Below are positions 1,681 through 29,720 of a stretch of 64,000 bases of DNA, piece after piece (the first letter of the stretch is position 1; each line of letters begins with the position of its first letter). The position numbers and the translations under genes were made by a program. The stretch is from Woeseia sp. (GTDB lineage Bacteria > Pseudomonadota > Gammaproteobacteria > Steroidobacterales > Woeseiaceae): assembly GCA_021773015.1 (NCBI GenBank), contig JAJFKW010000001.1, forward strand, positions 2,153,305 through 2,217,304, given 5' to 3'. The notes under the pieces are model-generated. The model saw only the letters and a program-made list of their open reading frames with translations, did not search any database and was not told the origin of the DNA.

Positions 1681-2319
1681 CTATCTGCAAGACGCCGATA
1701 TAAAACCATCCCCATCGTCGTCTTTCCATCCGACGGTCGCAGGGTCGCAATCCTCATCATGCCCCCTGTCATCACAAATTTCCGGGTTGCCTGGATATCG
1801 ATTTGCGTCAGCATCGTCACAGTCGGAACCACCACAGTGAACCGCAGTGACACCATCAATGTCGAGATCGACACATTCGACTGCACAACTGTCGGACTCT
1901 TCAAAACAGACCAAACCATTGCATGGCGGTCGAGTGATCACACAGCCGTTGGCGTTGGCGCCGATGCGATCCGCATCGCATCGCTCCGGTCCGTTGCAGA
2001 ACCTGCCGTCGTCACACTCAGCGTCGCTTGTGCATTGCTGCGTTTCTGGCGCGACCAAGTCGGACCCATTTGAGCAGGCGCATAGCGCAATCTTCAGACC
2101 GGATCGATCGAATTTACCAATACGCGATTCTCCACGGCCACAGGGACATCGTTCCACGCTGCAGTGCTTTCCATTTTGCGCGCTGTAGGTGGCGCACGCC
2201 GCTTCCGCACGCTCCCGCGCATCTGCCGCACTTGCTACCGACCCAGCGCCAATACCAAGCGTCATCAAAACTATAACAATTAGCGAAACGTAGACATTTT
2301 TTTGATCATTGCTGCTCAT
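1681..2319 (-). CDS. Exported Cys-rich protein with MopE-type metal-binding motif
   Basis: The ATG at 2319 overlaps the end of the upstream gene by 14 nt and gives a 212-residue protein. It starts with a signal-peptide-like helix ending around SVASA. The rest is rich in Cys and Asp. About residues 150-200 carry the motif DCDDADANRYPGNPEICDD followed by DEDCDP, which is the MopE-type putative metal-binding module first known from the copper-associated surface protein of Methylococcus. A final DDDGDGF looks like the start of a second Asp-rich unit that is cut off by the stop. Likely secreted or surface-bound; metal identity is unknown. Confidence 0.75.
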   Translation of the reverse strand: MSSNDQKNVYVSLIVIVLMTLGIGAGSVASAADARERAEAACATYSAQNGKHCSVERCPCGRGESRIGKFDRSGLKIALCACSNGSDLVAPETQQCTSDAECDDGRFCNGPERCDADRIGANANGCVITRPPCNGLVCFEESDSCAVECVDLDIDGVTAVHCGGSDCDDADANRYPGNPEICDDRGHDEDCDPATVGWKDDDGDGFISASCR

Positions 2320-3962: not shown

Positions 3963-4715
3963 CTAACGGCTCAGTTCGGTCGGCTGCAGATGCACGGTGC
4001 AGTTCATGCCTGATGGTATGACGTTTCTGGGGTTCGACAATTCGAAGCGGATTCCGAAGGTACCACTCGCGGCATCGATGACTCGGTCAACAACGGCAAT
4101 TTTCACCGTATATTCTCCATTCAGAGGCTCGGCTATTTGTAAGTGCGCGCTGTCGCCTACTGCCACGGATCCGAACAGCCCAACAGGAGCAATTGCCTCG
4201 ACGTTCAATGGATTGATTTGCGCCAACCTCACTATTGGTGTTTCTTGCACATATTCTCCCGGAGACAGGAGCCGCTCGACCACCACTCCCGAGAGCGGGC
4301 TGCGGATGGTTCGCATTTGTAACCTTTCTTCCACTTCCAGCAATTCCAGATCGCTAATCAGGCTCTGCGTCTCGATTTCATCTTTTTCGTGATTTGATAT
4401 TAACTCGTCCCGGTATAGATCGTCATTACGTGCCACTTTACGGCGGTTAAACAGTGCTCTGGCCTCCGCCAACTTGACTGCCGCAGACTCCGCTTCGGAC
4501 TTCAGTTTGGCTATTACCTGACCTTTTCTAACGATGTCACCACGCCCAACATTGACCTCCGCCAGTATGCCGAAAACTGGGCTGCCGACATCAACCTCAA
4601 GATGCGGTTCCAGCAAGCAATCGAGCGACGTAGTAGCAGGCGATTGTCCGAACGCCTGCTGACTTGAGCAGATTATCCCAAGCACGAACATCGGAAACTT
4701 GAAGTTCAATCGCAT
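3963..4715 (-). CDS. Periplasmic adaptor (HlyD/membrane-fusion family)
   Basis: This 250-residue protein has a signal peptide (cleavage around AFGQ), a first lipoyl half (about residues 38-72, with GSPVFGILAEVNVGRGDIV), a short helical hairpin (about 73-125), a second lipoyl half with RSPLSGVVVERLLSPGEYV, and a beta-barrel domain. This is the order of adaptor proteins that link inner-membrane machines to TolC-like channels. It is unusually short and is not followed by an RND or ABC pump. A good Shine-Dalgarno (GGGAG, 7 nt before ATG) lies across the 4-nt gap from the SecA-like gene, making it the last gene of the operon. I infer it bridges the inner-membrane hybrids to the TolC-family protein. 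Confidence 0.85.
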   Translation of the reverse strand: MRLNFKFPMFVLGIICSSQQAFGQSPATTSLDCLLEPHLEVDVGSPVFGILAEVNVGRGDIVRKGQVIAKLKSEAESAAVKLAEARALFNRRKVARNDDLYRDELISNHEKDEIETQSLISDLELLEVEERLQMRTIRSPLSGVVVERLLSPGEYVQETPIVRLAQINPLNVEAIAPVGLFGSVAVGDSAHLQIAEPLNGEYTVKIAVVDRVIDAASGTFGIRFELSNPRNVIPSGMNCTVHLQPTELSR

Positions 4716-4719
4716 CTAT

Positions 4720-6711
4720 TTACTCCCGCATACCCGCAAACGCCAATCGGTTGTTCAATGCTTCGTCGGCACGCAGCAGATCCTGTCGCATCTTCGAATG
4801 TTGTCGTTCTGTTCGCCACTGCGCGAACCTTAGAATCGACGCACCCAAGAGTTGTGCGATATTTGGCTCGCGTTGTCTTGCAATACTGTCCGAAATCAAG
4901 TGCAGGAGCTTGCCGGCATTCTCGACAATCGGATCCTGAAGAGATGCAATCACTTCGTAGCTTCCTGGGTCGCCCTGACGTGCGCATCGTCCGACGAGTT
5001 GTCGATCGATCCTCGCAGCGTCGTGATATTCCGTGAGTATAACGTGCAGGCCACCGAGCTCGGTGACCGCTGGTTGCAGGCAAATATCGGTTCCGCGACC
5101 CGCCATATTGGTTGCCACGGTTATTCTGCCCCGTTCACCAGCGCCAGCAATAATTTCCGCCTCTCTGCTGTCTTGCTTTGCGTTGAGCAATTCATGCGGC
5201 AGCCCGGCATCACGCAATAAACGGCTGACATATTCGGATGTCGCGACGTTACTTGTACCAACCAATACCGGCGTGCCGATCTCGTGCGCATGCGAAACAG
5301 CGGCGGCGACTCGCCGCCATTTTTCGTCCAACGATGGCAGTACGTAACGCCCCTGAAATACCCTTTTTGATGTTTGCCGTGGCGGAACGGTAACGACGTT
5401 CAGTCCGTAAACATTCCACAATTCTCCAGCAACTTCACGCGCCGTACCGGTCATGCCTGACAATGAAAGGTAGCGGCGAAAAAAGGACTGGTAGCTAACG
5501 CGCGCCAACACACTGGGATCCGGTGTAATGTCGCAGTCCTCCTTTGCTTCGACAAATTGATGCATACCCTCACTCCAGGTTCTGCCCGGCATTATCCGAC
5601 CACTATGCTGATCGACGATGAGAACCTTGCCGTCGCGTACGACATAGTGATCGTCACGAATGAAAAGGTACATCGCGGCGATAGCTTGTCGAATTAGCTG
5701 CTCGCCAAGCCGGGTACTTTGCCAGACTCCATCGAGGCCGCCCACCGCAGATGCGACCGCGTCTGCACCTAGCGGCGTTAGGTTGACTTTTAGTAACGCT
5801 TTTTCCAATAAGAAATCACGGCCGGCCAGCAAATTCTGTTGTATCGTCAGTGCCTGACGCACGATTTCGGCTCTTCCATCTTCGCCTCCCGGTGCTGACA
5901 AGATAAGAGGCGTGCGAGTTTCGTCGACAAGCACACTATCCGCTTCGTCGACGATCGCAAATCTTAGGCCATCGAGAAATAGCCTTTGCAAATTTGATCG
6001 CTCACCATACAGTGATTCAAATTGTATGTGCGCTGTGCTGTTGTGACTTCCGAGCGTAAGACGGTCACGCAGATAGTCGAATACGATCTCGTTGTTCGAA
6101 CAGTAGGTGATGTCACTCCTGTAATTCTCGCGACGCCCGTCCGCGTCCGTGGTACTGACTATCTGCCCGACCGACAATCCCAAAAATTCGTAAATCGGTC
6201 GTAGCAACTCGGCATCTCGATGCGCCAGGTAATCGTTGACGGTAATCACGTGTACTGGGACGCCGGACATCGCAACAAGCGCAGCCGGTAATGACACGGC
6301 CAATGTCTTGCCCTCGCCAGTCTGCATCTCCGCAATGGCGCCATCTAGCATTACGAGACCGGCATGAATCTGCGTTTCGTAATGCTGCATGCCAAGCAAA
6401 CGCCTCGATACTTCACGCACCAAGCCGAATCCTGCAGCAACATTTTTCTCGTCAAGCCCGCGAAGTCGACACGCCCGCCTTAGCGTGGCCGCACGTTCCT
6501 GCAATGCCACGTCCGAAAGCGGTTCCAATTCTGCAACACGCTGCATGACCAAGCGCACCAGACGCGCATATCGCTTGTCTGTATGGCGCGCTGTAAACAA
6601 CCGTCTCGCTACGAAACGATGATAAAGACTGTCCAACCCGGTTACTTTCGGGATTATACGTTCCGCATAGGGTTCCGCCGACGCCCGAACTGCGGCAGCA
6701 ACGCTAGACAT
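4720..6711 (-). CDS. Short SecA-like ATPase without wing, finger and zinc tail
   Basis: Starting at the ATG at 6711, which overlaps the end of the M50 gene by 8 nt, the protein has 663 residues against about 900 for E. coli SecA. The motor is intact: Walker A MQTGEGKTL (129-137), DEAD box (255-258), ATNMAGRGTDI (533-543) and arginine-finger motif QLVGRCARQG (571-580). A preprotein-crosslinking-like region lies between the two halves. After motif VI only about 80 residues remain; they align by eye with the beginning of the helical scaffold (RQDLLRADEALNNR resembles RKQLLEYDDVANDQR), then stop. So the helical wing, the two-helix finger that contacts SecY, and the zinc tail are missing. I infer a specialised export motor, not the housekeeping SecA. 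Confidence 0.9.
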   Translation of the reverse strand: MSSVAAAVRASAEPYAERIIPKVTGLDSLYHRFVARRLFTARHTDKRYARLVRLVMQRVAELEPLSDVALQERAATLRRACRLRGLDEKNVAAGFGLVREVSRRLLGMQHYETQIHAGLVMLDGAIAEMQTGEGKTLAVSLPAALVAMSGVPVHVITVNDYLAHRDAELLRPIYEFLGLSVGQIVSTTDADGRRENYRSDITYCSNNEIVFDYLRDRLTLGSHNSTAHIQFESLYGERSNLQRLFLDGLRFAIVDEADSVLVDETRTPLILSAPGGEDGRAEIVRQALTIQQNLLAGRDFLLEKALLKVNLTPLGADAVASAVGGLDGVWQSTRLGEQLIRQAIAAMYLFIRDDHYVVRDGKVLIVDQHSGRIMPGRTWSEGMHQFVEAKEDCDITPDPSVLARVSYQSFFRRYLSLSGMTGTAREVAGELWNVYGLNVVTVPPRQTSKRVFQGRYVLPSLDEKWRRVAAAVSHAHEIGTPVLVGTSNVATSEYVSRLLRDAGLPHELLNAKQDSREAEIIAGAGERGRITVATNMAGRGTDICLQPAVTELGGLHVILTEYHDAARIDRQLVGRCARQGDPGSYEVIASLQDPIVENAGKLLHLISDSIARQREPNIAQLLGASILRFAQWRTERQHSKMRQDLLRADEALNNRLAFAGMRE

Positions 6712-8851
6712 TGAATTTTCTCGACAGCAGTCGCCGTGCATTTCGATACCAGCGAAATGCCAGAGGTTCCCAACCGTGATCGAAGCGCACGAATACACGT
6801 TGGCCAAGACGCTGCGATGCAATTTTACTATCTACTTGCAGGTCAAATTGAAACATTGACTGAAATGCACGCTGCCCGCTGGCTCCGGGGTCAGTCGCAA
6901 TTTGACCGCCGCCTTCAGTACTCAACGCCATACTGGGTAACTCGTCAGTCGCCGCTGGAACTTCACGCTTTACCGATGCACTCAGAACGTTGTCCATCTG
7001 ATCAGATAGCAGGACCGAGACGTCGAGCAGTCGGTGTCGAACGAGATCGACGTCCTTCTGCGGTACGACGACGCGGATCGTCGTGACACTATCGTCGACT
7101 ACAAACGCAACGGCAGTACCACGTGGCAGAAATTGACCGGGTAAATCCAATGGCGATGCATGCAAGAGAAATACACCATCAACCGGGGCGGTAATTGTAA
7201 GGTCGCTAACATCGCGTTGTGCCTCCACCAATCGTTGTTCGGCAAAACTCAACTCTTCGCGAATGGTCGTTGCTGCGACCTGATCGATAATCGCCGCTGC
7301 CGCATACCGTGTCGCAATCTCCGCGACGTCCGCCTGCAGCATCGCAATACGAGCGGATAGCAATGCATCCTCGCTACGGACCAGCACTTGCCCTTCTTTG
7401 ACTGCCTCACCGGGAATCGCCGCCACACCGGTGACAAATCCGCTGGTCGCGGCTCGAACCCAAGACTCCTCAGGAGTCCATACCACACCCTGGGCCAATG
7501 TTCGCAGAGGCATTGGAACCGCCAAAAGCAATAGCGCAATTGCACCAACTAAAACGCCGCTGGCGGTGATCGCAACACTTCGTCTACCAGCAAGCGACGA
7601 ATCCGTGAACAAATAATGTAACTTCTTCAGCAACGGCGCCAGCAATGTCGAATAACCGGCCCAAGCAGCCAGGATGACGCCGAGCACGAAGTATTTACTG
7701 GCCACCATGCTAAGGATGACCAGCATGATAAACATGCGGTAGAGGAATGATGCGACTGAATAGAACAGTAACCACCTCGCCTCACCGGTCGAGGCTTCCG
7801 CTGGTTCTATGTCCTTCACGCGCAACAGTAAGCGACGCGTCAGGTAGCCGAAGTACTGGTTCGAACGAGACGCGAGGTTCGGCATCTCTATCCAATCCAT
7901 GAATATATAGTAACCATCGAAGCGTAACAGCGGATTGCCGTTGAAAAAAAGCGTGGAGACGCCCGCTATGAGCATTGTATTGTAGGCAACGGTTCGCAAC
8001 GTCCCTGGTTCAACGTTGAGCCAAACGAACATCGCGACTGACGCGAGCAATAATTCAAACATCATGCCCGCAGCGCTGACAACTGCCCGCTGGTACTTAT
8101 GACGGAACGCGGATGACTGCGAGGCGTCGACGTAGGGAACTGGCACGAAGACAAGAAGCATTACACCTACTTCGTGCACTTCTCCGCCCCACTTTCGCAC
8201 CGCAAGGGCATGACCTAATTCGTGAAACGCTTTTGCAAACGGAAAAATTAAAGCAATCAGTGCCAAATTTTGGGCGCTTAGGACTTTCTCTGTGACATTT
8301 TCGCTCAATGACGGCCAGTTGATTGCTACTTGAATAGTCGCGTAAGTGACGGCAATCAACCAAAGTATCGCTGTAGCCTTGCTAAATGCGAGGTCCGCTA
8401 ACACCTGTCGCTTGGCCAGCCAGCGCTCGGGGTCAAATAGCGGCACCTTAATCGAAAGCGGGCTGCGCCAACGCGCCGCTCTTTCCTGTTGCTGCCGTTT
8501 TTCGCTCCGACTATTCAGTTCCGCGACATCGGGTGGCGCGCCACTTAACAGCACATCTGCTGCGTGTAGCTGAGTTAGTAGGGATATGATTTCGTCCTGG
8601 GTTGGCGCGTCATCGCCATGACGTTCGAAGCAAAGCGTCCATATTTCATTGACTGTGCGCTTACCGTCAAGCATTCCGATAATGAAGTTGGCCAGCGGAG
8701 AAAAGCGATGAAATCTGCCCGACACATGATCTTGAAGTACAAACCAAATTTCGCCCCGGTAGCGGTGGCGATGGATCCGAACGTGCGACCTGAGGCGTGG
8801 CCGCAACGTTGCTACCCGGTACCAGGAGCTGCTATAGACCGATTCAGACAT
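6704..8851 (-). CDS. PqqD-like / M50 metallopeptidase / HlyD hybrid membrane protein
   Basis: This 715-residue protein combines three parts. Residues about 25-105 resemble PqqD, the small peptide-binding fold also used as RiPP recognition element. A multi-helix membrane region follows with the M50 site-2-protease signature: HELGH at 210-214 and NPLLRFDGYY at 306-315, whose Asp312 would be the third zinc ligand. After further helices, residues about 450-700 form a HlyD-type adaptor with lipoyl halves (SGFVTGVAAIPGEAVKEGQ and TITAPVDGVFLL) around a helical hairpin. Such proteins occur in peptide export loci. It follows the GAF-HlyD gene by 6 nt and overlaps the SecA-like gene. I infer an inner-membrane platform that may bind the cargo N-terminus, cleave it, and connect to TolC. 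Confidence 0.9.
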   Translation of the reverse strand: MSESVYSSSWYRVATLRPRLRSHVRIHRHRYRGEIWFVLQDHVSGRFHRFSPLANFIIGMLDGKRTVNEIWTLCFERHGDDAPTQDEIISLLTQLHAADVLLSGAPPDVAELNSRSEKRQQQERAARWRSPLSIKVPLFDPERWLAKRQVLADLAFSKATAILWLIAVTYATIQVAINWPSLSENVTEKVLSAQNLALIALIFPFAKAFHELGHALAVRKWGGEVHEVGVMLLVFVPVPYVDASQSSAFRHKYQRAVVSAAGMMFELLLASVAMFVWLNVEPGTLRTVAYNTMLIAGVSTLFFNGNPLLRFDGYYIFMDWIEMPNLASRSNQYFGYLTRRLLLRVKDIEPAEASTGEARWLLFYSVASFLYRMFIMLVILSMVASKYFVLGVILAAWAGYSTLLAPLLKKLHYLFTDSSLAGRRSVAITASGVLVGAIALLLLAVPMPLRTLAQGVVWTPEESWVRAATSGFVTGVAAIPGEAVKEGQVLVRSEDALLSARIAMLQADVAEIATRYAAAAIIDQVAATTIREELSFAEQRLVEAQRDVSDLTITAPVDGVFLLHASPLDLPGQFLPRGTAVAFVVDDSVTTIRVVVPQKDVDLVRHRLLDVSVLLSDQMDNVLSASVKREVPAATDELPSMALSTEGGGQIATDPGASGQRAFQSMFQFDLQVDSKIASQRLGQRVFVRFDHGWEPLAFRWYRNARRLLSRKFNV

Positions 8852-8857: not shown

Positions 8858-10690
8858 TTATGGCGTCCATGACCAAAATGCCAATTTGAGCCAGCGCGAT
8901 AGCTGGTGCGTCCAGATCCAAATGAGCCGTCGCTCTTCGATGTCGATTTTCCCAACACCTTCCATACCTGGCCTGACGCCAACCGGCGCGTCCTTTAGAT
9001 TTGCTTCAACTCGAAAGTAATTCACACCTTCCGCACTACTGGCAACGGATGTCAGACGCGTAACTTCGAGCGCCAAGGGTTGATCCGGCAGCGCTGCCAA
9101 CAACAATGAACCTTGCTGCGTCGGCAGCACACTTGCGATATCGTGCTCGTCAACTTCAAGCACGACGCGATAGCGATTCAACGGCGCCAATTCGTAGAGC
9201 ACTTCACCTCGTTCGACAGCCGCCCCCAGCGATTGGCTGAGGTCGCCGCTGATAATGAGACCATCGAACGGCGCCACAACTTTTGTTCGTTGGATTTGTT
9301 CGTCCAGCAGCGCGAGGTGTGCATCTGCTTGCTCAATCTGCGCATTAATAATTTGCACATTGGCACGCTCTCGTTTGGCCATCGCGTCCTGCAGTCGGGC
9401 GGCCATTTGCGCGCGCTCCGAACTAACCTGCACGCGTTCGAGTCGCAAATCACGATCATCGAACTCAAACAAGAGTTTACCCGCATCGACGATGTCGCCC
9501 GGCCGCACGGCAGCACTCGCAATATAACCCTCTATCGGGGCACTGATCACGCGCCGTTCAGCACCTTCGACACGACTTGTCGCTGATACGCGGTACTCGC
9601 CCGTCAGTCCGATCGACAATCCAACGAATAGCAACATCACAATGGCTACAAGCTTTCGTAGCAAATACCCAGGACCGAGAACTCTCCGAACTGCGGTACC
9701 AGCCGCTGCTGCGATCTTGACAAATATCGAGCGGTCCTCGCGGCGCTTCGAATCCAACATCGGACCAATAGCGATCCCGACAGACTTGCAGAGTTCAATT
9801 GTTGTGTCATCGAAACCGATCTCGACGTGGCGTTCCAATGTCATCGCACCGCAAAATTCGCCGGCACTGAGTAGTGGCACACTGAGAATTGCCGATCCGC
9901 CGACCAGCCCTGACAGTTTCTCGTGCTCGCGCGACACAAAATAATCGCTTTTAGCTGCAGCAGGTACAGCGATGACAGAATGTTGGTCGATTGCTTCATC
10001 CATCGCGTTGCCAATTGCGCGAACAAGATTCATGTGGCCGCCAATTTGTGATGAATGCGATACGGCGACGATATCCGCAAACCCCGATTTGACGAACCCC
10101 AGGCTCACTCGATCACATTCAAGCAGCACCGCAAGCTCTGTTACGACGGCCCTCGCCGCATCGAGAAATCGCTCATGGCTTAGCGATGTGGCGATCAGAT
10201 CGAGTACAGTTATCAATCGATCGGTAATCTGTTGCTCGTCGCCAATCGCCGTTCGTCGCATGTGCATATCGAGCCACGCGCTTCCCCACTGCAGCTGCCG
10301 CAGCAATTCGCTGGCGTTGGCCGTGGGCTCCACACCGATTGCAACGACACCCACATTATTGCCGGGCTGACCAAGCGGATAGGCGACCGCCAGCACCTCA
10401 TCGTTTTGGTCGATTTGAGATTTAGCTAGTGTGAGCGTCTCCTCCGCAAGATGCATGACGCCCGGTAGCAACGCGTCTTGCTCCGGCCAAAAGGCAACGG
10501 GCTTATAGTCATCCGAACCATCTTGCCGCAACACAACCACTGCACACTTAACGCCCTTGAGCATAGAACACTGCAGCACCAACCAGGCACGACAGAACTC
10601 GACCACCGATTTTGCGTTGCCAAGTTGCGACCAGAGCAATTGATCGACGAATATCAGGTTGCCACTATCTGTTTCCGCCCGAGTATCCAT
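8858..10690 (-). CDS. GAF-domain / HlyD-adaptor hybrid membrane protein
   Basis: The ATG at 10690 is preferred over an upstream ATG at 10741 that lies inside the preceding gene; it gives 610 residues. The N-terminal half is cytosolic, with a first GAF-like region (about 20-140) and a clearer GAF domain (about 175-320). A single membrane helix (about 355-375, KLVAIVMLLFVGLSIGL) leads to a periplasmic adaptor: lipoyl halves ISAPIEGYIASAAVRPGDIV and VVAPFDGLIISGDLSQSLG flanking a coiled coil, then a beta-barrel. Fusing a GAF sensor to an adaptor is unusual and suggests that export responds to a cytosolic ligand. It lies 10 nt after the DUF3467 gene and 6 nt before the M50 gene. Confidence 0.88.
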   Translation of the reverse strand: MDTRAETDSGNLIFVDQLLWSQLGNAKSVVEFCRAWLVLQCSMLKGVKCAVVVLRQDGSDDYKPVAFWPEQDALLPGVMHLAEETLTLAKSQIDQNDEVLAVAYPLGQPGNNVGVVAIGVEPTANASELLRQLQWGSAWLDMHMRRTAIGDEQQITDRLITVLDLIATSLSHERFLDAARAVVTELAVLLECDRVSLGFVKSGFADIVAVSHSSQIGGHMNLVRAIGNAMDEAIDQHSVIAVPAAAKSDYFVSREHEKLSGLVGGSAILSVPLLSAGEFCGAMTLERHVEIGFDDTTIELCKSVGIAIGPMLDSKRREDRSIFVKIAAAAGTAVRRVLGPGYLLRKLVAIVMLLFVGLSIGLTGEYRVSATSRVEGAERRVISAPIEGYIASAAVRPGDIVDAGKLLFEFDDRDLRLERVQVSSERAQMAARLQDAMAKRERANVQIINAQIEQADAHLALLDEQIQRTKVVAPFDGLIISGDLSQSLGAAVERGEVLYELAPLNRYRVVLEVDEHDIASVLPTQQGSLLLAALPDQPLALEVTRLTSVASSAEGVNYFRVEANLKDAPVGVRPGMEGVGKIDIEERRLIWIWTHQLSRWLKLAFWSWTP

Positions 10691-10700: not shown

Positions 10701-11012
10701 CTACTCCGCCTCTTGACGCTTATCGATAACAATGTCGCCAAATGTCGACTCGTACTTTTTGATCGTCCCGTCCAACAACATGAGCATGCGCTTAGCTGCG
10801 TATGGGCTGAGCATGATACGGTGACTCAGTAGAATCGTCAGATCCTTTTGCCCCGCATGCCACGTTTGATTGGTGCCGAATAACAGCGTCACCTCTTCGC
10901 GAGTACACGATACATTGGCAACATTGGCATAGGCCGCTTCCATGTTCGAATCATCCCAATTGACCTTCCGTGTCGTCTCAGCACCGTTATTTATCTTGTC
11001 TTCTTTTGCCAC
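10701..11012 (-). CDS. DUF3467 family small protein
   Basis: The start is a GTG at 11012, fixed by a strong Shine-Dalgarno (GGGAGGTT, about 4 nt upstream); no ATG is suitably placed. The 103-residue product carries the DUF3467 hallmarks: NWDDSNMEAAYANVANV, TREEVTLLFG and the helix-forming LSPYAAKRMLMLLDG. The family is uncharacterised; it reads as several beta-strands followed by a long helix, with no signal peptide, so it should be cytosolic. It sits between the giant cargo gene (39 nt away) and the GAF-HlyD gene (10 nt). By position I suspect a chaperone or pilot for the giant protein, comparable in role to SecB, but nothing in the sequence proves this. Confidence 0.85.
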   Translation of the reverse strand: MAKEDKINNGAETTRKVNWDDSNMEAAYANVANVSCTREEVTLLFGTNQTWHAGQKDLTILLSHRIMLSPYAAKRMLMLLDGTIKKYESTFGDIVIDKRQEAE

Positions 11013-11051: not shown

Positions 11052-14000
11052 TTACCAGTGAATTCGTTTTCTTTGTACTGGACTCTGGTTTTGCTGTGAC
11101 GCAAGCCAGCCCGAAAGTCCAAGCAAACCCATTCCCATTGACCCCGTTTCCGGCGCCAGATCATCAATGTGACAGGCAGCCCCACTGTCGAGCTTAATTT
11201 CTACCCTGCGATTCTCGGCGCGACCTTCAGCAGTGTCGTTATTGGCAATCGGCAGTTCTTCGCCATACCCAACCGAGCGCAGGATGTCAGGATTCACACC
11301 GTACTTTTGCAACGCATCTGTAACAGCAATCGCGCGGTCGAGCGATAACTGAAGATTGTGGTTCTCGTCGCCTGCATTATCGGCATGACCGCTAATTTGC
11401 ACGATAAGACCATCGAAGCCCGCAAGAACGGTTGCGGCCCCGATAAGATAGTCGTGCGATGCAGGCGTCAGCATTGCTGAGTTCAGTTCGAATGTCACTT
11501 GCGCCAGGTAGTTTTGACAAACCGCTTCATGAAATTGATTGCCATGTGCGCGACCACCAGTTGATACGCTGATGGTGCTCGCTGATATTGGCGCCCGGTC
11601 GGCGAAAACGTCGCCAACATGATAGGGCGACACCAAAAATCGATCTTTAAGATACAAGCCAAACATCTCGCTAGCCGCAAGATCGAGCGGCTGCTGCCCG
11701 AGCACAACCACGCTGCTGGCAAGGTCGCCGTCGTACAGCACACGACCATATTCGTAGATAAGAATGTCTTCAGATAGCGAGCCGAAAAGCGTATCAAAGC
11801 CGGCGCCACCGATGATGACATCGTTGCCGTCACCCCCTAGCCGTGAAGCATCGTTCATCTGCCCGCCGGCAAGCCGGTCTGCACCGCCGATAAAAAAGTC
11901 GGTTGCTTCGACAGATATCACGTCGCCGTCGTTGAATGTTAGCTGGCCGCCATCGCCGATGACAATGTCATCTCCCGCGCCACCGCTTATGATGTCACCA
12001 TCACTACCGCCGAGAAGCAGATCGTTCGTACTGCCGCCCAACAGTCGATCCGTACCGCCTGCATCTGCCTGCAGCGTTTCTACGCGCACGACCTGCGCAA
12101 GCGAGCGCTCTCGATCCTGATAAGTAACTTCACCCTCATCTCCAAACAAGAATAACGGCGCATTCCAGGCTGCTCCATCGACAATGTCGCTACCCAGTCC
12201 GCCTTCAATCACCAGCAGCCCATCGTCTGCGGAATTGTCGAGGTCCAGCATCGTTATCTGATCGTCCCCGCTATTGGCGTGAAATGTCGTCACGTTATCG
12301 CTGAGCGTGCTGACAAAAGACACGACATCGGAGCCAGAGCCCGCCCAGATGTTGATCCCACCAGCAAATCCGCCGCTTGCCGCATAATTGATCGCGGCGG
12401 GCGCCAACCCACCAATCCGGTTGTCGCTTATAGATACATCGGTATCTGCGACCGCGGACCCGCGATCACTGATATTCAGGGTATTGAAGCCCTCACCGGC
12501 AAAGATGCTAAGTTCACCCTGAACCGCATCAAGAATTCCGCTGAGCGCGCCACGGATCGGTTCGGTAACCGGCGCTGTGTTTGAAACATTGAGTGTATCG
12601 TCGCCATCATTCGTCGCAATCGTCGTCAAAGACGGCCCGTCATCATTCAATGTACCTTGCACATTAAACTCGTCGTTGCCGCTGCCGAGTCCAATATTCA
12701 CATTGTTAGCGCTATCGTAAACAATGCCGGGTACGCCGTCCCCTGGTGCGCCCATACCCAACCCGGTCAGTTCAGCGCGGCCCGTCACATCGTTGATACG
12801 CAAGGTACCGACGTTGTTCGGCTGGATAAGTTGGTTGCTCAGCAGGCCGAGCTCTGTATCGGCCGGATCGTCCGCATCCAGAACGAAACGGACAAAGTCA
12901 CCCGACAGCAATGTCAACATTAATCTGCTCTCGTCGGTATCTATCGCCGCCGAGATGCGATCGCCAACACCGGCGCTCGCAAGTGCGGCGTTGATGTCGG
13001 CTTCGAGGTCCGCAAGACTGTTATTGTCGAATACCGCGACGCTGTTGTTCGAGAATCCAAGCTCGAGTGCCGCTGGATCATCGGCGTCAACCTGCAGGCT
13101 CACGTCGTCGCCTTGCAATGACTCAATGACCAGCGTATCGCCATCGACTCTGGCGATGACCCGCTCGGGCTCCAGGCCAAGCCGATCAAACGCTGTGTTG
13201 ATGTCATCTACAAGATCGTCAGCCGATTGGTTGCTCGCATCTATCGGCACCGTGACTTCGTAGCGTTGTTCGCCAACATCCAAAATAAAGAACGCATCAC
13301 CGCTCAGACGTCCGTTTGCCGCAGCAGCCAAAGGCGCGTCAGCCCGCAAAACGCCAACCTCGGCGACCACTGTGACCGAGACAAACTCGCCATCGCCGAA
13401 GTCAATATCGATGTGTGCGTCGCCGCTCAGCCGGCCATTCGCCTGTGCGGAGCCGCTTAGCTGCGATAATGCCGACGTTGTCATTCCGCCATCGCCGCTA
13501 TCGTCAATATTCAGTGTGTCGATACCCGTGCCGCCCGAAATATCGAGGAGGCCATTGATCAAATTGACAGAACCCGACGCGCCGATACCCGCTGTACTTC
13601 CTACATTAATGAGATCGGCGCCGTCATCGCCGCTGGCCCGGACGTCACCCTGCATTGAGCGAATATCGATGGTGTCGTCTCCGGAATTGCCTACGATCGC
13701 CGCAGTACTACCAAAGTTGCTCGTTTCCAGCAGGATAGAATCGTCTCCGGCTTCACCATCCACTGTGACCATTCCGGAAAGGCTTTGTATGTCGACATCG
13801 TCGTCGCCTATGCCGGCAAATATTTGGCTGCTGCCATCGATCGTACTCTCAATGGTGAAGCGATCACTGCCCGAACCTAACTGCAACGTTAGATCCGCAA
13901 AATCCGAATACTCTATGTTGATCTGCATGCCGAGTCCGCTGAGCACACTGTCTGTGAGCATTCCGTCGTTATTTTCCCCGTCATCAGCATCTGTAAGCGA

Positions 14001-17000
14001 CAATAAATTATTTCCTTCATCACCGTCGATGATGAGCGAGCCAGTTAGCGCGCTGCCCCGTATGCCGTTCAACGTAATAAAATTCGTCTCGCTGTTTTCA
14101 AACCCCCCAACGTCTATCGCGTCGTCACCGAGCCCGCCGCTAATGCTGACTGACGTGCGACTGTTTGTGCTGCCGATCTGAATCGTGTCAGCACCTGCGA
14201 GCGCAGTGACCTCCACCGCCTCAATTCCACTGCCTTGCGATACGTTTTCTACGGTAATGGTTGCATTGCCGCCCATAGCTAGCGCGTTAAGCGTTACGGT
14301 CGAATTATCGTTGATGGCCTCAACCTGACCCGCAAGTTCACTGTCGTTAATTGCGTCGTTTAATGCGTCGACAAGATCACCGACGGATTGTGGGTCATCA
14401 ACATCCTCGGGCTGAACGATGAGTAGTACTGCTTCTGTATCACCAATACTCAACAACAAGCGCGCATCTCGATCAAGCACGCCTGACGCCAAGCTGGTAT
14501 CTGCGGTCAGTGTTCCCTCAGCACTGTCGCCTGACTGAAATCCGAGAACAACGTTCGGTTCACCGTAACTAAATCGAGGATTGTCGCTGCTGTCTGCGTC
14601 GAGCACCGTCACAATATTGGTATTGTCGATTTCCAACATGTCGGCGCTTTGCGAACCGAAGAATAGTGCAACATCCGTATCCCAGAAATCCCCGGTGTCG
14701 AACAACCGCGTATTTGCGGTGGCGCCCTGTCCGACGCGCGATTCGACCGCATGCGCAGTATAGGTATCCGACCCGGCTCCGCCGTCGAGCACAATAGTCT
14801 GCGAGCCAGTCTGAAATATGTTGAAGTTGTCACCACCGCGACTGCCAATGATAGTTTCAACGCCGTAACCGTTGTGCGACACCGAATTGCCAACGGATGC
14901 GGCATGCGTGTTATTCAACTGCCAGACAGCGGTCGCCGCATCGATGGACGCGGGCAGCAGGCCAGCAAATTCGTCAGCAACCGAAATCTCAAAACTGCTG
15001 TCGGTAACTGCCGTTACAGTGAATTTATTGTTCAGTGCATTCGCGTCCACGACCGCATCATCGATATTGCTGCCAAACACAGCAATTTCATCGCCGAAGG
15101 AAAGACCGTGTCCTATCGATTGGATCTCGACAAATACACCGACTCCGTCATCACGAATCGTCACACCTTCGATAATTCCCGTGCCGCTCTCGTTACGCTG
15201 TACAAACGCGTCGTCGAATAAGAAGGGAGGATCGGAGAATGTCGTTCCATCTAAATTGAAGGTGCGTGAGTCAACAACCGTAACGGTGTATTCAACACCC
15301 TCCAGAACTGTCTCACCGCTGACGGGGTCGACGCCGCCTACAAACACCGTATCGCCACTTTGCAGCCTATGCCTAAGAGACGTTTCGATTTGAATTGGCA
15401 TCTCCGAACCGTCTGGATCAGCCGCTCGAAATTCGTCAACAATGAGCGCGCTTCGATCAAGCTGAAAAATACCACCCTCGACATAAGTTAGTTCATCAGG
15501 CAGACCGGAAACAATCACTGTAAAGGCGTCCGGGTCCGCAGGATCGACACTCACCGTAAAATTCTGGTTTACATCAACTAGTGTGCCGGGATTGCTGCTG
15601 TCTTCGACTTCAGCGCCGGTGAGCGTAATTTGGTCACCGTTTTGCAGTCCATGCCGCGTTGACGTCACACGTAACCCATTTGGCGTGGCGACAATATTTT
15701 CAATAGCGCCTACTCCGACGTCGCTGCCCAGTTGGAAATTGATATCCGTCGTCGCATCTGAAAAATCCCAGGTATCCACGCCGCCGGACGGCGCAGCCAG
15801 GCCTAGGAGATCGGTTTCCTCATCGACTTCGTCGTTACCCCAGTTGCTACTGAATCGATAGGTGTCATCACCGTCCCCACCGACGATAGTGTCGTCGCCA
15901 GTTCCACCTTCGATGTCGTCATCGCCATCGCCACCGGCAATCGTATCGTTGCCAGCTCCGCCGAATATCAGATCAGCACCACGGCCACCTGTAATCTGGT
16001 CATTACCGTCCCCTCCGTCTATCTCATTCGCGACCGCAGTGGCTGAAACGCCGCCGACTCGAATAATGTCATTCCCTTCGTCGCCAAAAATGACATTGCG
16101 TATACCCGCAGCACCAATAATGGTGTCATCGCCCGTCCCACCTCGCACTTCAACTTCGATCCCGGATCCAGCCAGCCCCTCCAAATTGATCATGTCATCG
16201 CCTGCACCCGCATTTACAGTAATCTTGTCGACACCGATAAAGCGTTGTTCGGGTCCGTTCTCCGTAGCACTGACAAAGACACTCCCGCTATCGAATCGCA
16301 CGTAGACGCTCTCGTTGCCGTCTGCCAGCGACCCATGAATGCGATTTTCGCTGGCCGTTCCCATGTTCAGCTGCAATACGCCACTGCCAAGATCCTGCGC
16401 CAATATTGGCGGCCGCTCGAACGGAATATCGAAACTAGCCAGCGTCACTCTGCCAATTTCGTATTCGTCAGACCACAGCCCGAATAACACTTCGACATAC
16501 GCGCGCAAAAAAGCATCGATCCTGCCGCTGGTATCGAAAATCGCCAACGGATTGAAGTCGTTAAGCAATATATTGCCTAACATTTCGCCGAGCCGAACTT
16601 TAGTGTCTTGGTTCGGATCGTTCAGATTGAACAGGATGCTCGCGTTTATTCCACCTTCGACGCCGGCGGATGCAACACCCGCGTCGAGCGATGCGCCTGC
16701 GGCAATACCGCCCTGCAATGTAACCTCGGGTATGTCCACACCGTCAGCATCGACATCGGTAATGAAAAATCCGTTAACCAGGTCGAGCGGGTTGTCACTT
16801 GCGAGGAATTGATTCAATCCGAGCGTATCGTAGCCAAAGCCCAAGTCGACTGTGGCGCTGAAGAAGCCGCGCAGGGTTGCAAACAGTGGCGGAAATATCG
16901 GAAAGCGCTGCAGGTATTCAAAATCGAAACCAAACGGCGGTAGGTCATACGTAATCAAATTAACGTCGGGTTTGCCTAACAGCAAATCGACAATGTTGCC

Positions 17001-20000
17001 TGGCTGCAGTATGTCGAAGCTGACCGTGCCGTTACCCGGTCGCGTCACGTTACGCGTAAAGTTCTGCGTGGCCGGCGTGCTGCTGTTGGGATCGTCGTTG
17101 AAAGTGTCGCTGGCACCCTGATTGAGCGAACCGATGTCAGGGCTCGCGTCCGCCAGGCTTTGCCCATTGGATTGCAGCGCATTAAGATTGTCTAGAGAAA
17201 TCGTGCCAAATTCGAGTAACAAAGAACCGCCGCTCGCATCGGCTTCTGCTGCCGCATCGCTCACAAGATCGATCAGAAAATAGATCTGCTCGACCGCATT
17301 CAAGAATGGGGTGATCCGATTTTGGGTATCCAGAAGTTCCGCAAGCTGTTTCAACGTAACCGTCTCGCCCGCCAGATCCGAAATCACCGGCAGACGCTGG
17401 TACAGCAATCCGCTTTGACGGTCCAGAAGGAAGTCTAGCGGCTCCAGGAGTGCACCGATGTCGCTCAGGAATGGACCAGCAAAATCACTGATAAATGAGC
17501 CCAGGTCGAGTGTGATGTCGCGGAAGTCAACATCCGGCGCAAGGATCTCACCGCCGTCCGCGGAACTGAACGACACGGTCCAATCGATAAGCAGATCCGT
17601 GCTGATCGCCGGCAGGAACGATGAATCCAATCCGAGCCCGTCGAAGTTAACGGTCAAGCCGAGGTTGACCATTGCATTGCCGGTTGCTTCAGCAACGATA
17701 ATGTCACTGAGCTGGGTACTCGACGCACTAATTTCAGAAAAACTTAGGCGTCCATCTTGCGACGACCCGGTACCAGGATCCATGATATCGACAATAATCT
17801 CGATGCCTAGTCCAGTGTATTCCCCAGCCTCTTCGAGATCGATGGCATCGATAGCAAGATAACCGAAGCGGCCCGAAACATTCGCAGTATCAAAAATCAC
17901 TAGTGAGGACCCATCGGCGGCACGCAATCGCAGTTTACCTGTCGAGTCGCCATTGGCATCGAGCGCCATCTCCGCCGTCACCAAATTCGCGACACCTAAC
18001 GCTGCGTCGATTGATCGTTGAATATCGGCGACCAAGTCGAGAGCACTCATATTTTCACTGGTATCGCTTGCAGCGATTAATATATTGTCGAAGGGTTGGC
18101 CGCCCACTTCCAATGCAAACACAACGTCGCCCGTTAGCTGCCCGTCGCTAGGCAACTCAGTCGTCGCAAGCAATTCAACTGGACCGTCTGCCGGTTCGAC
18201 ACCCATACCTGTACCAGGTGAAAACCCAAGGATGCCAAGCAAACTAACGTCCAGGCTGATAATCAGTTCGGCGGTTCTGCCCGGAGTCAGCATGGATTCT
18301 GGCGCCAGGGCGGAATCGGAAACAAAGTAGAAGCCGTCGGTCTGGCTAACACCGAAGCCAAAACCCAGCTCCCAGCCAAGTTCAAGCTCCACACCAGCAT
18401 CAAGATCGAAATCGAGAATAGGTAAACCGAGATCGAAGTCCAATGACTCCCCAAAGACTGTTTCTTGCCCTAGCAGAAAATCGAATTGACCAAATTCATC
18501 GAACAGGCCGAAACCCGTTTTCATGATGTCGTTGATGTCTACAATGCCCTCGGGACCAACAGCATTTTTCAGAAAATCTAGCGCGCCAACACTCAGTCCA
18601 AACAAATCCAATGCGATCGCGCCAGCCGTCTCAATCACGATCAGGTCCGCGGCTTCAGTCGCCGTAAACGTAATCTGGAAGCCACCATCGACATCGACGA
18701 ATCCGGCAGTAACCTGCTCCGCCAACCCACGCCCATCGAGCGAATTATTGATCGCTTCGACCAGCGCCTCCGGCGTGTCGTCAGCGATGTCGTCGGCGAA
18801 AACCACGATACGGGTTGTATCTTCATTACCGACGGTAATATTCAATTCGGCGTTTCGATCCAACATGCCAGTCGTCAGCACTCCAGCTGCCACGAGCGTT
18901 CCGTCGGCGCTCACATCCGGCTCAAAGCCCAGAACGCGGACGGCTGCCGGATCACCGTCGTCGGCACCAGCAAAAATATTGTAGAGCGTTTCCTGAACAA
19001 GCGTGACCGGATTAAGTCCGCCCTCGCGAAGCTTGAGACTCAGATACGCGAGTACGTCTTCGCGGAAATCGGCAACGAACTGCCCGGCGGGTGCCAGGCC
19101 GTCACCGATAAGCGGCATATCGATGCCGTAAACTTCGCCGTCGAGCGCATCCTGGATCGACAGCAGAATCGAATCGAGCCCGTCGATTATGAACTCCGGG
19201 TTGCTGAGCATGCCGATTAGCGTTGGCGTCGGGAATGCCGTGAGGTCGGGCGCTTGTATACCAACCGAGCCTTCGGTTCGGTCTACGCCACCACTGCCAT
19301 TGTCCTCGCCTAGAAAACCAAGTAGCTCCGGAATTGAAATAACTAACGTATTGTCTTGATCGCCTACCGGTATCGATTCTGTCGGAAAAAATAATGGCAA
19401 TTCCGCAATTGCGCTTCCCTCAACCTGCGGGGTCGCGAGCGCGATTTCGTCGCCGTTTGCACCCAAATAAGTGCGCCCATCCATCTCGCCGGTATCTTCC
19501 AACGATAGTTGAAAACTGGCATCGAGATTGGCAGTGCCATCGATAACAAAGAAGCCAAACGGCCCAACCTGTGCGGTAAACTCTAGATTTTCGCCATTCG
19601 CCCCAGCATTGAGCAGCAATGCAGTGCCATCCGAGCCGTTATAAAGAAACGGTCGGATGACTTGAGTCACTGAGCGTATTTCCAGTTCTACTCCAGGATC
19701 GGTCGAAAATTCGAGCCGCGAAATATCGTCACTGCTACTGGTTCGCAGCGAAACTGTCACCGGTGGACTAACGGTTCCGGCAAGCGCAGCATCTACAGCC
19801 TGTTGCAGGTCGTTGACGAGTCCACCGGTATCCGCCGATGCATCAGTACGCAGTTCTCTACCCGCTATTATCTGGTCACCGTTGTCATCGGATCCCGCCA
19901 AGCCGAGTCTGCTAGCCGCATTAGACGTGCCAAGATCGCTCACCGAAAAAACGCCACCCAGCGTCAATGTTAAGCGGGTTCCGATACCTTCTCCGGTGCC

Positions 20001-23000
20001 TTGCAACGTCAGCCTGCCGGCGACAAATGTGGCATCTACAACAGCGTCCGCGACCGGATTTAGTTGACCGGCATCGACCATCGCCTGACGAATCGCCTCA
20101 TCAATCGCTGCAAGCCATTGTGCTCGTGTAGCGCTCAACATTTCGTCAACGGAAACCAATACCGGCGGATTTTCCTGAACTCCGAGTTCCAGGTAAAACT
20201 GCAAGGCCTGTCCTTGGGTAACACCGGTTTGCGTCACAAAAACACCGGACTGAGTGGTGCCCGCGGTCGCAGTGCTTGTATCTTCAATCTCTACGCGCTG
20301 CAATTCCTCGTTAAAAGAAGCCTGCAGGCCAGCATTTGCATTAATCGCATCAATGGCGTCATCAATTGTTGTCGTTGCCGCATCGGGACCCAAATCTATG
20401 TCGACCGTCGTACCGTCGGCAAGCGTAACCTGGATGTCAGCGCCGACGTCCAACATCAGAGCATCTGTCAAATCGCTGAGCAGGGTTGTCAACCCAACCT
20501 CTACTGGGCCCGACGTTTGATCGCCCGCCGTGACAGTCACCCTAAAGACTTCACCATCGACAACCAAATCGAATTCGACATCCTGATCAACCAATCTGTC
20601 CGCTGCGACCTGCGCGTCACCATTGGCAGTCAACAGACCGCCATCGGACATTGCACCATCTTTAAATCCCAGCGCTTCTGCCGAGCCATTGCCACTGCCC
20701 AACGCGATGCCGAAGCTAAGCCGGACGGTACCGTCCACTCCGACACTCAAGTCACCGGTCGAACTAACGCCGACGAGACTTGTAACACCGTCGAGCAGGT
20801 CGCGCGCGGCCGAATCTGGATCTGTCAATCCGACCAGATCCTCAATGTTGAGATCTAGGCCGAATGACTCTTGTATGCCTGCGTTGAATTGCAAGTCGAC
20901 GCGCAGCGCAAGACCGTCATCAAAATCCAACGCCAGCGTGACCAATTCATCGGGAACACCAAGTAGATCCTCAAGCATTGATTCAAGCTGGCCTAAAGAG
21001 CCCGCCGGATTCGCGATGACTTCATCGACCAGAGCAGCAAACTGATCGGCAACCAGCAAGAGTTCTGAAGGGCTTTGATTCAGTAACGGCAGCGGCTGGT
21101 CGAGTATCGTTGCAAGTCCGCCTTCGCCGTCGCCGTCGCCTTGCAATTCACGCAGAAATTCCACGATCTGTTGTAGCGCATCGACAACGTCCGAGAATGT
21201 GAGATTGCTGAGTGCATCGTAAATATTGAGATCGAGACCCGTGATATTGACTGACAAACCGTTTTCGAGGCTCGCATCATCTAACGATGGTGGACTACTC
21301 AACCAGTCGCTCAGTTCGAGGCCGATATCGATCAACGCTGGTTCAATTGGTGTACGTATCGGAAGGACGGGTGCTACGTTAAGGTCGATGTCGACGCCAC
21401 CCGTGATATCCGCGGCAACAATTTCCGATATTGGGCTGTCGATGTCGCCGCCAAGATGTTCCCAGAGCGTTCCCAAACTCAAGCGCGTCTCGTCGGCATC
21501 GCCGGGCGCGGCATCTGGATTGATCAGCGAAATAGCGACGTCACCAAAAATGCCACCCGTGCTGTCGATAACTTCTACGCCAAGACCAACACCGCCCTCT
21601 CCACCCAGGCCAACCACGGCGGTGGCCTCGATATTCGTTGCATCGAGATTTAGGCCGCCCGAAAGCGTTGCATCCTCAATGAAAAACTCCGCACTTTGGA
21701 TGCGTGCGCTGTATTCGTCCTCCGTGCTAAAACCGAGCTGATCGACAGCCGCATTGGGCGCATTTCCAGGCGTTAACAGCGCCGATACCGCAGGCAATGC
21801 GAGCGACTGAATGCCACTCAATGTTGCCGTTGCAAATTCAATTCGATTGCCTTCCGTACTCATGTCTTCAGTGAGCATCACCCTGCGTGCGAAAACGTCG
21901 TTATCGCCGATCGCTGCAACTAGCGCGTCATTGATGTCGGCGATGAGGTCGTCGACGCTATTGTTGCTGACGGTGTCAATCTCGCTGACCGTGATGTCGT
22001 ACACCACATCGTCAATAGCAACTTGAAATACCGCGTCGCTGCCCAACCTGCCGTTGCCCGGAATCGGTGAACTCAAGAGTCCTAGTTCCATTAACGCGGG
22101 ATCATTGAGATTATCGACCACGATACTACGCGCCAGGAGCCGCCCCGGGCCGGCGTTATCGGGCTGCGCTAAGAAAGCGGTCGCGTAAAGGCTGAACCGC
22201 TGATCGTTGAATTCGGCAATAACAGCTGGTGTAACAAAATGCAGTCTGATGTCGTCACCATTGGCGTTCGCCACGGCGACAGCGTAGTCCAATCGCTGCG
22301 ACGACTGTGCATTGACGAAGACCTCAGCATCAGGATCGCCGATAGCTGCGTTAATCGCATCCTGCACATCCTGCGCAAGTGCCGCAATCGGATCGGGCTC
22401 GTCATCGTTCTCCTGCTCATTGTCGATTGTAGCATCAGCGCTGAGGACACCGCGAAATGTTTCCGTACCGATGACAACTTCAAAATAGACGTCACGTACT
22501 AGGACACCGTTTTCCGGCACCGGGATATCACCGATCACTGCAGCGCCACTCGCCGACAATACGACTGGACCGGTTAATCCAAGCGACGTATCGTCAGTTC
22601 GTTCTAATTCGGCGTCGTCAGTTGCCTGGTCGACCGCGTTTTGAATGTCCTGCAATAAATCATCAAGCGACTGATTCTGGGTATCGCGTGCAACCGACAC
22701 GTCGGCAAAATCAGCGACCGCGAACTCATCTTCCGTTACAAGCCGCAGCTGATAGCCGTCAAAACCTGTACCGGATGCCTCAATCTCAAAGCTGTCCGCG
22801 CTAGCATTGCTAATGGTTACCTGTAGACCAGCAAATCTGGGCTCATCGAGTGCACTCGATATCGCACTCTCAAGATCGCCAGCGAGATCGTCGAAACCTG
22901 TGCCATCGTCCGCGTTCTCAAGTGTATTAAAACTAAGCAACACGGCATCCACGAAGGTACGCTCACCTTCGTCATCGGTTATTTCAATGAAAAACAACTG

Positions 23001-26000
23001 ATCCCGTTCCGGGTCGTCGTTACTATCTACCACGCGGCCCGACACCGGCGCTGCCCAGGCCACCATCGCCGTTGCGCCGGTGTTTGCCACGATAGTCCAA
23101 TCGCTCACTTGGAGGGTTGAACCGCTCAGTCGCTCATTCTCCTCAAAATTTTCTTGCAACAGCGTCACATCGAACGACGCTGTATCGGAGAGTTGCCCGA
23201 GGTCCGGTAGTTGTGGAACGACAACCGGCGGCGCAACCACCAGCGACACGGCAGGCGTCAGGTCCACGCCGAATGTAAAGGCCAACTGCGCATCCGCTGT
23301 AACAGCGAGGTCGGACATGCTTTCAATGTCGATGAACTCGCCGAGATCGACCGAAAGATCGATCGGTAACGACGCGATATCAAACTCGCGCTCAAGTGCA
23401 ACCGTGAAGCTCATTTCGGAGTTGGCAACGTCGAAATTAACCGTCACGCCGGTGACAAACTCAGCGAGTATCTCATTCAGTTGATTGGCCAAATCTTGTG
23501 CACTGACAAAACTGGCGGCCTCAACACCGAGACTGAGCAGGCCGTCAACCAGCGAAGATGATTGACGAACGTTCACTAGCGCGACGCCGCCTATGGGAAC
23601 ACTTGGGTCAGTGACCAGGGTTGCTCCCGGAGCAACATCGAACACCAATTGCCTTGTCGCCGAATCGTCATTTGCTACGGTAATACCGTCGAATACTGTC
23701 GCCAGCTGATCGTTGATCTCCGCAATGAGATCGTCGATATCTCTGACGTCGTCGCCGGAACCCGTTGAACTGTTCGGATCAGTAATACGGCTAACGGTAA
23801 AGACGTGCTCTTCGCCGTCGGCGTTTAGCGTGAACTGCAACTCATGGCCGAGCACTCCGGATTCCACAACGGCGGTCGGCACAACCAGTCGATTGCCGTC
23901 AAACCCAAGCGACTCATTGCCAACTGATGGCAACGAGACACCAAGCACTGCGGTCGCGTCTAACTGTGGTCGGAATCCGATGCGACCTTCTTCTAGAAAT
24001 ACTTCAACTTCAGCGGCATCGGCGGCACCGATGACTGGGATCAGCGCAGCTATTACCGCGTTCTCAATATCCAGTCTTAGGTTTTCGGCGGGACTATTGG
24101 GGCCTATCCCGTTGTCCGAAGTAACCGTCGGATTGAGCGTCACGACAACAATCTGTGGCTCACTGCCTGCCATTTCCACTTCGATACTGAATTCGACGAG
24201 ATCGCTACCTGGCAAAACACCGCTCGCCAGCAAGTCCGCGGACAAGCGCAAGCCATCATGGTGCACCAACGATCGCAACAGGCTTTCGCCAAACGCCTCA
24301 CCGAAATCGATCAGGTCACCGATGGTTGTGTTCCCGGCGAACGGAACACTCAAATTCAGAATTTCAGATTGTGCAAGCCCGCCCAACCAGGCCCCGAGTT
24401 GGTCCAGCATATTGAGCAATTCGTTCGGTGTAATCAGTGTGAAGTCGGCCGATTGGCCAGGCAACACGACTGTCAGGTCCTCCGTCAGGAAATTCATACT
24501 AGCCAGATCGATAGTGCCGTTGCCAAGATCTGCTATGGCTGATTCAAATCCCGTATCCGTGGTAAAGAATAAGTTGGATGTAATTGAACCGTCTTCACTG
24601 GCAACACTAAAAGGATTGCTCGCCGCTAATTCGTCCACGGTCCAGCGGCCATCGGAAGCAATTAGCTCGACGTCCGCGGATGCGTGCAATTCCGACAGTT
24701 CGCCATCGATACTGCCCCCCATAAAACCGATTAGCGCGTCTGTGAAAACGTTGACAGGTGAGCTTTGAGCAAGTGAGGCACTGGAAGACAATTGCAACGC
24801 CTCGTCAACAAAAAAACTTCCTGGAGCCGTTTCTATACCACTCAAGCCGAAGCTAAAGTCAAGCTGAAACCCGCTCAACAGATCGAATAGCGTCTCTCGC
24901 TCTACTTCTACGCCCGCGTCACGAAGCGTTTCGGACAGAAAGAGATCCATGCTGCTATCGCGGGTACTGCTCAACTGCTGCACGAAGCGCAAATCCTGGG
25001 TGCTGCCGTTGACGACAATTTGATCGTTGGCTGCGAGCGTGTTGGCAAGCCACGCTATCGTGCCGGAAATATCTTCGGCTGAACCGACCACGTCCACATG
25101 ATTTGCCAGATCCACCATCCAACCAGCAAGAAAATCGGTAACGTGAGCACTGCTAGCACCGCCAGGAAACGCGGTATCCAAGCCGTCAACAAATTCCTGA
25201 AACTCATCAACCAGTTCCTGCAGTACACGCCCAAAATTCTGCAATTCGCCGAAGCTCACGCCAAGCGGATCCGCAAGCGGAATCGAACTTGCGAAACCAT
25301 CAATCGATTCGAGTTCGTTGAAGCGATCAGCGAGAGCCTGCAGACCGTCCACCAACGCCTGGACCTGGCCCGTTTCAAGCGCGACTGGAGAGTTTTCGAC
25401 CAGCACGTTTTCTACTGCGCCGTGCATGATCGTTGGCGTGGCGCTATTGCTGAAAGTGAGCGTCGTACCGTCGCTGCTGGTTAGCACCTCGGTGTTGCCG
25501 TCAACCACCAATGTGTCCTCGCCATCGCCGCCGTTGATAGTGGTCATCAAAGCGCCTGCCGCAACAAAGAACTGATTTGCATCAGCTGTACCAGTCAGCG
25601 TGTCACCGCGCCCGGCGCCAATACCGAAGCCAGTACCGATAACATTCTCAAAGTCGGACGCTGTTTCAGTTTCGGTAGCATTGCCGAAGATATCTTGAGG
25701 TCCAACAATCCCAAGATCGAAAGTTACGGCCGATTGGGCGGTCGCGAAACTAATTGTGTCAATTCCACCGCCACCGATTAGAACATCGTTACCCGCACCG
25801 CCAGCGAAGATGTTGTCCTCGTTGTCGCCGGTAATTGTGTCATCCTGCGACCCACCGAGGACATTTTCGATGTTACTGATGGAAGTTGTTGCGCTCGCTG
25901 TATCTACGCTGAGGTCGACTGCAATGCTAGTGGTAACGCTCGAATAGTCGAGTGTGTCGCTGCCGCCGCTGCCATCAAGCGTACCAATGATGGCGCCATC

Positions 26001-29194: not shown

Positions 29195-29720
29195 CAATCT
29201 GTTCCCCTTACCAACGTTTCTGAATCAAAGGTCGCCAGGTCACGCCGCGCTTAGACGGTACTTTTTGTCCGCCTATTTGTTATAGCGAGGAAACCGAGCA
29301 TTTCCACCCATATTTATTCTCATATTGGCTACAGACACCGGGCTACCGCCGCAGAGTCGTTAACATCACGCGGGCAACAATTTGGAAGCGGCAACGAATG
29401 GCCTCCCTTTGCCGCTCCGACGTATCCGTTGCTGGCGTACATCGCTAAGTCTGATTGCTTAGTAAACGAATCGAACCGTGCTTGGTTATATTTTGGTTGC
29501 ACGTCTGATCTCATAGTCGCCCAATTTTGTGGCAAATACCAGCGACGATGGCGCTTCCCGTCGGACACGGAGGGAGGCACGCCCAGCCTCGATTGGACCT
29601 GTCTAAACTGTGGCATCCCGTAGACATTTACATGGTCAGCCCTGAGTTGATTATGAATATGAACTGGATCGATCGGGTGTTTTTCACCCACCCAATTCTC
29701 TATAGCGACATACAATGCTA

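Follow-up and report, generated by a model that had tools for sequence, protein, structure and literature searches.

A tandem GAF-HlyD adaptor in a candidate ABC-less export module that accompanies LEPR-XLL giant proteins

How surface proteins of 3,000–19,000 residues are exported without a Sec signal peptide is a question that bears on an operon of Woeseia sp. in which an HlyD-type periplasmic adaptor is fused to GAF domains. What do GAF domains do on such an adaptor, and what does the adaptor serve? The operon lies in the window analysed here, a stretch of 64,000 nucleotides of contig JAJFKW010000001.1 (assembly GCA_021773015.1). The ORF of the fusion protein, referred to below as GAF-HlyD, starts with an ATG at 10690 and stops at 8858 on the minus strand, encoding 610 aa; all further features lie on this strand unless marked (+). 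A plus-strand reading of 8858–10690, as the coordinates alone would imply, contains 14 stops and was discarded. Homologues with 27–45% identity were found in several phyla.

Based on Pfam, GAF (PF01590, E 1.5e-6 for the whole protein) and GAF_3 (2.5e-6) matched only the second of two N-terminal units, with PF01590 spanning residues 177–307, while HlyD_3 (2.3e-16) and HlyD_D23 (1e-11) were both located C-terminal to it. The first 125 residues had no Pfam match. The GAF assignment is not a chance hit, because 38 of the 41 family members score with Pfam GAF. An AlphaFold model computed from an alignment of 12 family members reached a mean pLDDT of 81 and a pTM of 0.37, and the N-terminal part modelled alone had a pLDDT of 80. 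In the model, GAF1 (residues about 25–125, 10316..10618), which is less conserved, displays a GAF-like alternating order of helices and strands and resembles GAF2 (residues about 172–312, 9755..10177). The two are joined by a long linker helix (residues 126–171, 10178..10315), and a second long helix leads from GAF2 towards the membrane helix. A Foldseek search of the PDB with residues 1–338 returned the tandem GAF-A/GAF-B units of PDE6, PDE5A and PDE2A and the GAF-PHY units of phytochromes (best E 2.9e-10). Comparison of the GAF1 and GAF2 profiles revealed no clear sequence homology, so GAF1 was rejected as a sequence-level duplicate of GAF2, and the count of two GAFs rests on the fold in the case of GAF1.

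The whole model matched MacA, EmrA and MexA through its HlyD half (best E 2.5e-15). This half (residues 363–588, 8927..9604) has the barrel-sandwich, the alpha-hairpin (residues 413–469) and the beta-barrel part of these adaptors, and is preceded by a single K/R-flanked transmembrane helix (residues 343–361, 9608..9664; hydropathy 2.15), so that GAF-HlyD falls into the HlyD/MFP family. It differs from MacA, EmrA and MexA by its tandem GAF, by a hairpin tip without the RLS motif and by a Trp-rich C-terminal helix (residues 589–608, 8867..8926), seen in the model and the most conserved segment of the protein. Since residues 343–361 form the one strong hydrophobic segment, the GAFs and the HlyD part lie on opposite sides of the membrane; by analogy with adaptor topology, the GAF side is probably the cytosol. 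The sequence-only reading had proposed a GAF sensory-type part fused to a periplasmic adaptor, with two GAF-like regions on the cytosolic side, and had suggested structure prediction as a check. The tandem GAF fold obtained agrees with that proposal, GAF2 by both Pfam and fold and GAF1 by fold. The fusion itself had already been published in 2015, and it is common, GAF-HlyD being present in 35 of the 299 genomes of the phylum. A precedent for a cytosolic domain on HlyD sought in the accessible part of PMC8277102 gave no match.

The sequence-only reading had also proposed that a small molecule gates export: a metabolite or nucleotide would bind to GAF2, and only in this state would the signalling helix open or assemble the exporter. 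The nearest structural matches, the tandem GAFs of PDE5/6/2A and of phytochromes, do bind ligands, and long helices link GAF1, GAF2 and the membrane helix. As in the tandem GAFs of PDE2/5/6 and CyaB2, two GAF folds are separated by a long helix and a further helix enters the output domain; here the output is a membrane adaptor and not an enzyme. Positions S211, E232 and P272 of GAF2 are invariant in 41 sequences, and the polar residues H212, D235, Q236, H256, C192 and R194 are highly conserved. A sensory role was also suggested in the accessible text of Kamneva 2015 (PMC4452313). However, the NKxnFx3DE motif of cyclic-nucleotide-binding GAFs is absent from all 40 GAF-HlyD sequences tested, which sets them apart from cyclic-nucleotide-binding tandem GAFs. 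Furthermore, the fold match covers the whole GAF class and not one ligand type, and a GAF unit that is near-universal in the family is equally expected of a structural part. The conserved polar residues of GAF2 could line a pocket or form an interface, and the retention of GAF2 in almost every member is compatible with a structural or docking role too. We consider gating by a small molecule possible but rather doubtful.

The neighbouring genes give the adaptor a context. Directly upstream of it, a small DUF3467 protein is encoded (10701..11012; PF11950, 9e-21), and such a gene recurs just upstream of GAF-HlyD in many loci. Downstream lies a gene for a 715-aa membrane protein combining PqqD, M50 protease and HlyD parts (M50-HlyD, 6704..8851). 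Its residues H210, E211, H214 and D312 are invariant among 19 sequences, and HExxH, which reads HELGH here, is kept in 28 of 29 sequences. A PqqD match, N-terminal in the protein of this locus, was obtained for 11 of the 19 M50 proteins. The protein with its PqqD-like N-terminus also resembles daptide intramembrane metalloproteases (NF041824, 3e-44, below the cut-off), a likeness that suggests RiPP-like recognition of the N-terminus of a cargo. The next gene encodes a SecA-like ATPase with DEAD, PP-bind and P-loop parts (4720..6822; the true start may be downstream of the TTG at 6822), followed by a small HlyD adaptor (3963..4715). The order DUF3467, GAF-HlyD, M50-HlyD, SecA-like, HlyD is kept in Gammaproteobacteria, Nitrospira, Rokubacteria, Acidobacteria and Rhodobacteraceae, with single parts absent in some.

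The SecA-like protein shares with SecA the nucleotide-binding folds, with GEGKT and DEAD kept, and the preprotein cross-linking domain. In contrast to SecA, it is 650–730 aa long in most relatives and shows similarity to SecA only as far as residue about 605, so that, going by the established anatomy of SecA, it has no helical scaffold/wing and no two-helix finger. Such a protein is probably unable to act on SecYEG as SecA normally does. The canonical SecA is encoded elsewhere in the genome.

These genes correspond to the secondary SecA_DEAD/type I secretion-related module of Kamneva, Poudel and Ward (2015), who described GAF-HlyD proteins together with M50-HlyD, a secondary SecA_DEAD protein, HlyD and sometimes OEP, without an ABC transporter and in a gene order shared with Methylobacterium extorquens AM1 (PMC4452313, accessible text). 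Both the GAF-adaptor fusion and its suggested sensory role are thus already published there. The Woeseia locus agrees in having a SecA_DEAD protein apart from the canonical SecA, adjoining M50-HlyD, GAF-HlyD and HlyD genes, and no ABC transporter. It differs by DUF3467, which that text does not mention; PqqD, a two-GAF protein and a LEPR-XLL cargo are likewise not described in it. The present analysis also adds single-GAF modules without SecA.

Which of the adaptors meets the outer membrane channel? The channel itself, of the TolC family, is encoded at 27851..29197 (TIGR01844, 1.1e-88). Adaptors dock on TolC through an RLS motif, RxxxLxxxxxxS, at the hairpin (PMC3391258). The small HlyD carries it at its hairpin (RNDDLYRDELIS), and it is recognisable in most relatives, with the last position varying. 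In the GAF-HlyD family no RLS or RLT motif was found at the hairpin tip; matches to the regular expression RxxxLx6[ST] lie mostly at the base of the hairpin's first helix, while the tip has none, and GAF-HlyD was rejected as the TolC-docking adaptor. Its place in the HlyD/MFP family stands, as not all members carry the motif. With a GAF-HlyD tip free of RLS and a separate small HlyD that has it, it becomes less likely that GAF-HlyD directly gates the outer duct.

Between the channel gene and the operon, directly upstream of the latter, lies a giant ORF (11052..27854) of 5600 aa, whose start is overlapped by the TolC-family gene. Based on profile matches, the protein has an N-terminal LEPR-XLL motif, RTX repeats and a C-terminal OmpA domain, which may anchor it to peptidoglycan. 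The LEPR-XLL motif occupies residues 25–47 (27714..27782) and scores 29.1 bits with NF012209 against a cut-off of 17; this is the sole LEPR-8K protein above the cut-off in its genome. A hydropathy profile around the motif showed no hydrophobic signal peptide. The same holds for LEPR giants elsewhere, which often have 3,000–15,000 aa: readable N-termini have a basic stretch and, some 16–100 residues after the first ATG, LEPRxLLSG/AD, but lack the hydrophobic core of a signal peptide.

To place this neighbourhood in the phylum, LEPR-8K was compared with the module across the 299 genomes. LEPR-8K was found in 50 of them: in 32 of the 35 genomes with GAF-HlyD versus 18 of the 264 others. Both were present in 32 genomes, GAF-HlyD alone in 3, LEPR alone in 18 and neither in 246 (Fisher p 8.5e-27); for M50-HlyD relatives the corresponding counts were 48, 36, 2 and 213 (p 6e-30), both p-values being descriptive because the genomes are related and independence is overstated. 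An M50-HlyD relative thus accompanies LEPR-8K in 48 of 50 genomes. In 33 of 62 cases the giant ORF lies within 10 kb of M50-HlyD; most other giants have no M50-HlyD match on the same contig, and many of the assemblies are fragmented. From these gene neighbours in many bacteria, the cargo of the module is likely the giant LEPR-XLL surface protein. A literature search, with most subscription papers outside its reach, found no published link between LEPR-XLL and an exporter.

The HlyD half resembles RND/MacA adaptors, and GAF-HlyD might accordingly serve a common efflux pump, with GAF as an incidental addition and no relation to the giant protein. No pump gene occurs among the neighbouring genes examined, the operon holds a protease and a SecA-like ATPase, and the co-occurrence with LEPR giants speaks strongly against such independence. 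We regard an efflux role as very improbable. A classical type I system (HlyB-HlyD-TolC) is another related system, with which the locus shares an HlyD-type adaptor, a TolC-family channel and an RTX-bearing cargo gene next to the transporter genes. The differences lie in three HlyD-like proteins, a SecA-like motor, an intramembrane M50 protease, an N-terminal LEPR-XLL tag on the cargo and the missing ABC energiser. The ABC_tran profile had no match inside the window, and a local ABC ATPase as energiser was therefore excluded.

More distant M50-HlyD modules show which part of the adaptor is shared. They have an HlyD of 440–510 aa in the GAF-HlyD position and no SecA-like gene, and most adjoin LEPR giants; in some, OEP and a small HlyD are present as well. 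Loci L067–L077 are variants of this kind (OEP, HlyD, single-GAF HlyD, M50-HlyD), mostly beside LEPR giants and without a visible energiser. Using hhalign, the N-terminal 170 residues of the distant HlyD aligned with GAF2 (E 4.6e-7) and its HlyD part with that of GAF-HlyD (E 1e-27), while nothing aligned with GAF1. The idea that these modules wholly lack GAF was rejected on the GAF2 alignment and because one of the proteins scores with Pfam GAF. Eight genomes with single-GAF modules have only the canonical SecA, whereas tandem-GAF genomes (G000, G019, G159 and G287) have a second SecA; an exception is G186, with the longer GAF-HlyD and no accessory SecA. GAF2-TM-HlyD is thus the shared core, and GAF1 goes with the SecA-like motor, the latter link being an association and not a proof because the pattern follows two clades. 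Modules with the same core and no SecA exist, so the motor is not universal.

This distribution would also suit a pure cytosolic scaffold, in which the GAFs make the adaptor multimeric and keep the SecA-like motor and the M50 protein in place, without sensing anything. GAF folds often dimerise, GAF2-TM-HlyD is kept in the single-GAF modules, and GAF1 is found where the SecA-like protein is found. On the other hand, the strictly conserved polar residues of GAF2 exceed the needs of a scaffold, and we hold a purely structural role to be unlikely.

Based on the directly observed domain make-up, fold class, gene order and genome-wide link with LEPR-XLL, we infer the following for the cargo, assembly and coupling of the system. 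GAF-HlyD is probably, though by no means certainly, the inner-membrane adaptor of an ABC-less type I-like exporter for the LEPR-XLL giant and couples a cytosolic state to the duct. The exporter would consist of TolC, the small HlyD, GAF-GAF-HlyD, PqqD-M50-HlyD, the SecA-like ATPase and DUF3467, and its cargo would be the neighbouring 5600-aa surface protein. GAF-HlyD and M50-HlyD would form the base at the inner membrane, and the small HlyD would dock TolC via its RLS hairpin. The cytosolic tandem GAF, which a long helix connects to the membrane helix, could couple a cytosolic event to the periplasmic ring. This event would most likely be the docking of the truncated SecA motor and/or of the substrate, whether or not a small ligand takes part. 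If the exporter reading is correct, docking and coupling through protein contacts has about an even chance of being the role of the tandem GAF, small-molecule gating is clearly less likely, and a pure scaffold is less likely still. We therefore favour motor or substrate docking coupled to the adaptor ring over ligand gating.

PqqD-type domains bind leader peptides in RiPP systems, and by this analogy the LEPR tag may be read by the PqqD part of the M50 protein. A more specific proposal, which we put forward tentatively and at somewhat less than even chance, is a distinct secretion system. In it, the PqqD-like domain recognises LEPR-XLL as an export tag, which M50 possibly cleaves, a SecA without the parts that push on SecYEG moves the chain through an M50/HlyD-based port in the inner membrane, and the tandem-GAF adaptor acts as the cytosolic gate of this port. 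Against an exporter, the joint inheritance of LEPR giants and modules could have another cause, e.g., M50 processing at the surface, and some giants lie far from any module (610 kb in G019).

Some other ORFs of the window were noted. Two downstream of the operon (1681–3589) contain Cys/Asp-rich DxDxDG repeats, MopE-like by eye, and possibly encode secreted metal-binding proteins. ORF 516–896 (+), otherwise unremarkable, has about four copies of a short tandem repeat, RIYASTHL. ORF 38799–40577 (+), 9.6 kb from the operon, reads by its motifs, as judged by eye, like a GGDEF-EAL protein, which might supply a second messenger close to the GAF system.

With respect to the literature searched, the new elements are that the module tracks LEPR-XLL giants, that GAF2-TM-HlyD is its shared core with GAF1 accompanying the motor, and that the RLS motif resides in the small HlyD. 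The co-occurrence gives the orphan module of 2015 a concrete candidate cargo and a candidate tag. Seen in this context, the GAF-adaptor fusion is frequent and widely distributed, and the GAF next to its membrane helix belongs to the core machinery.
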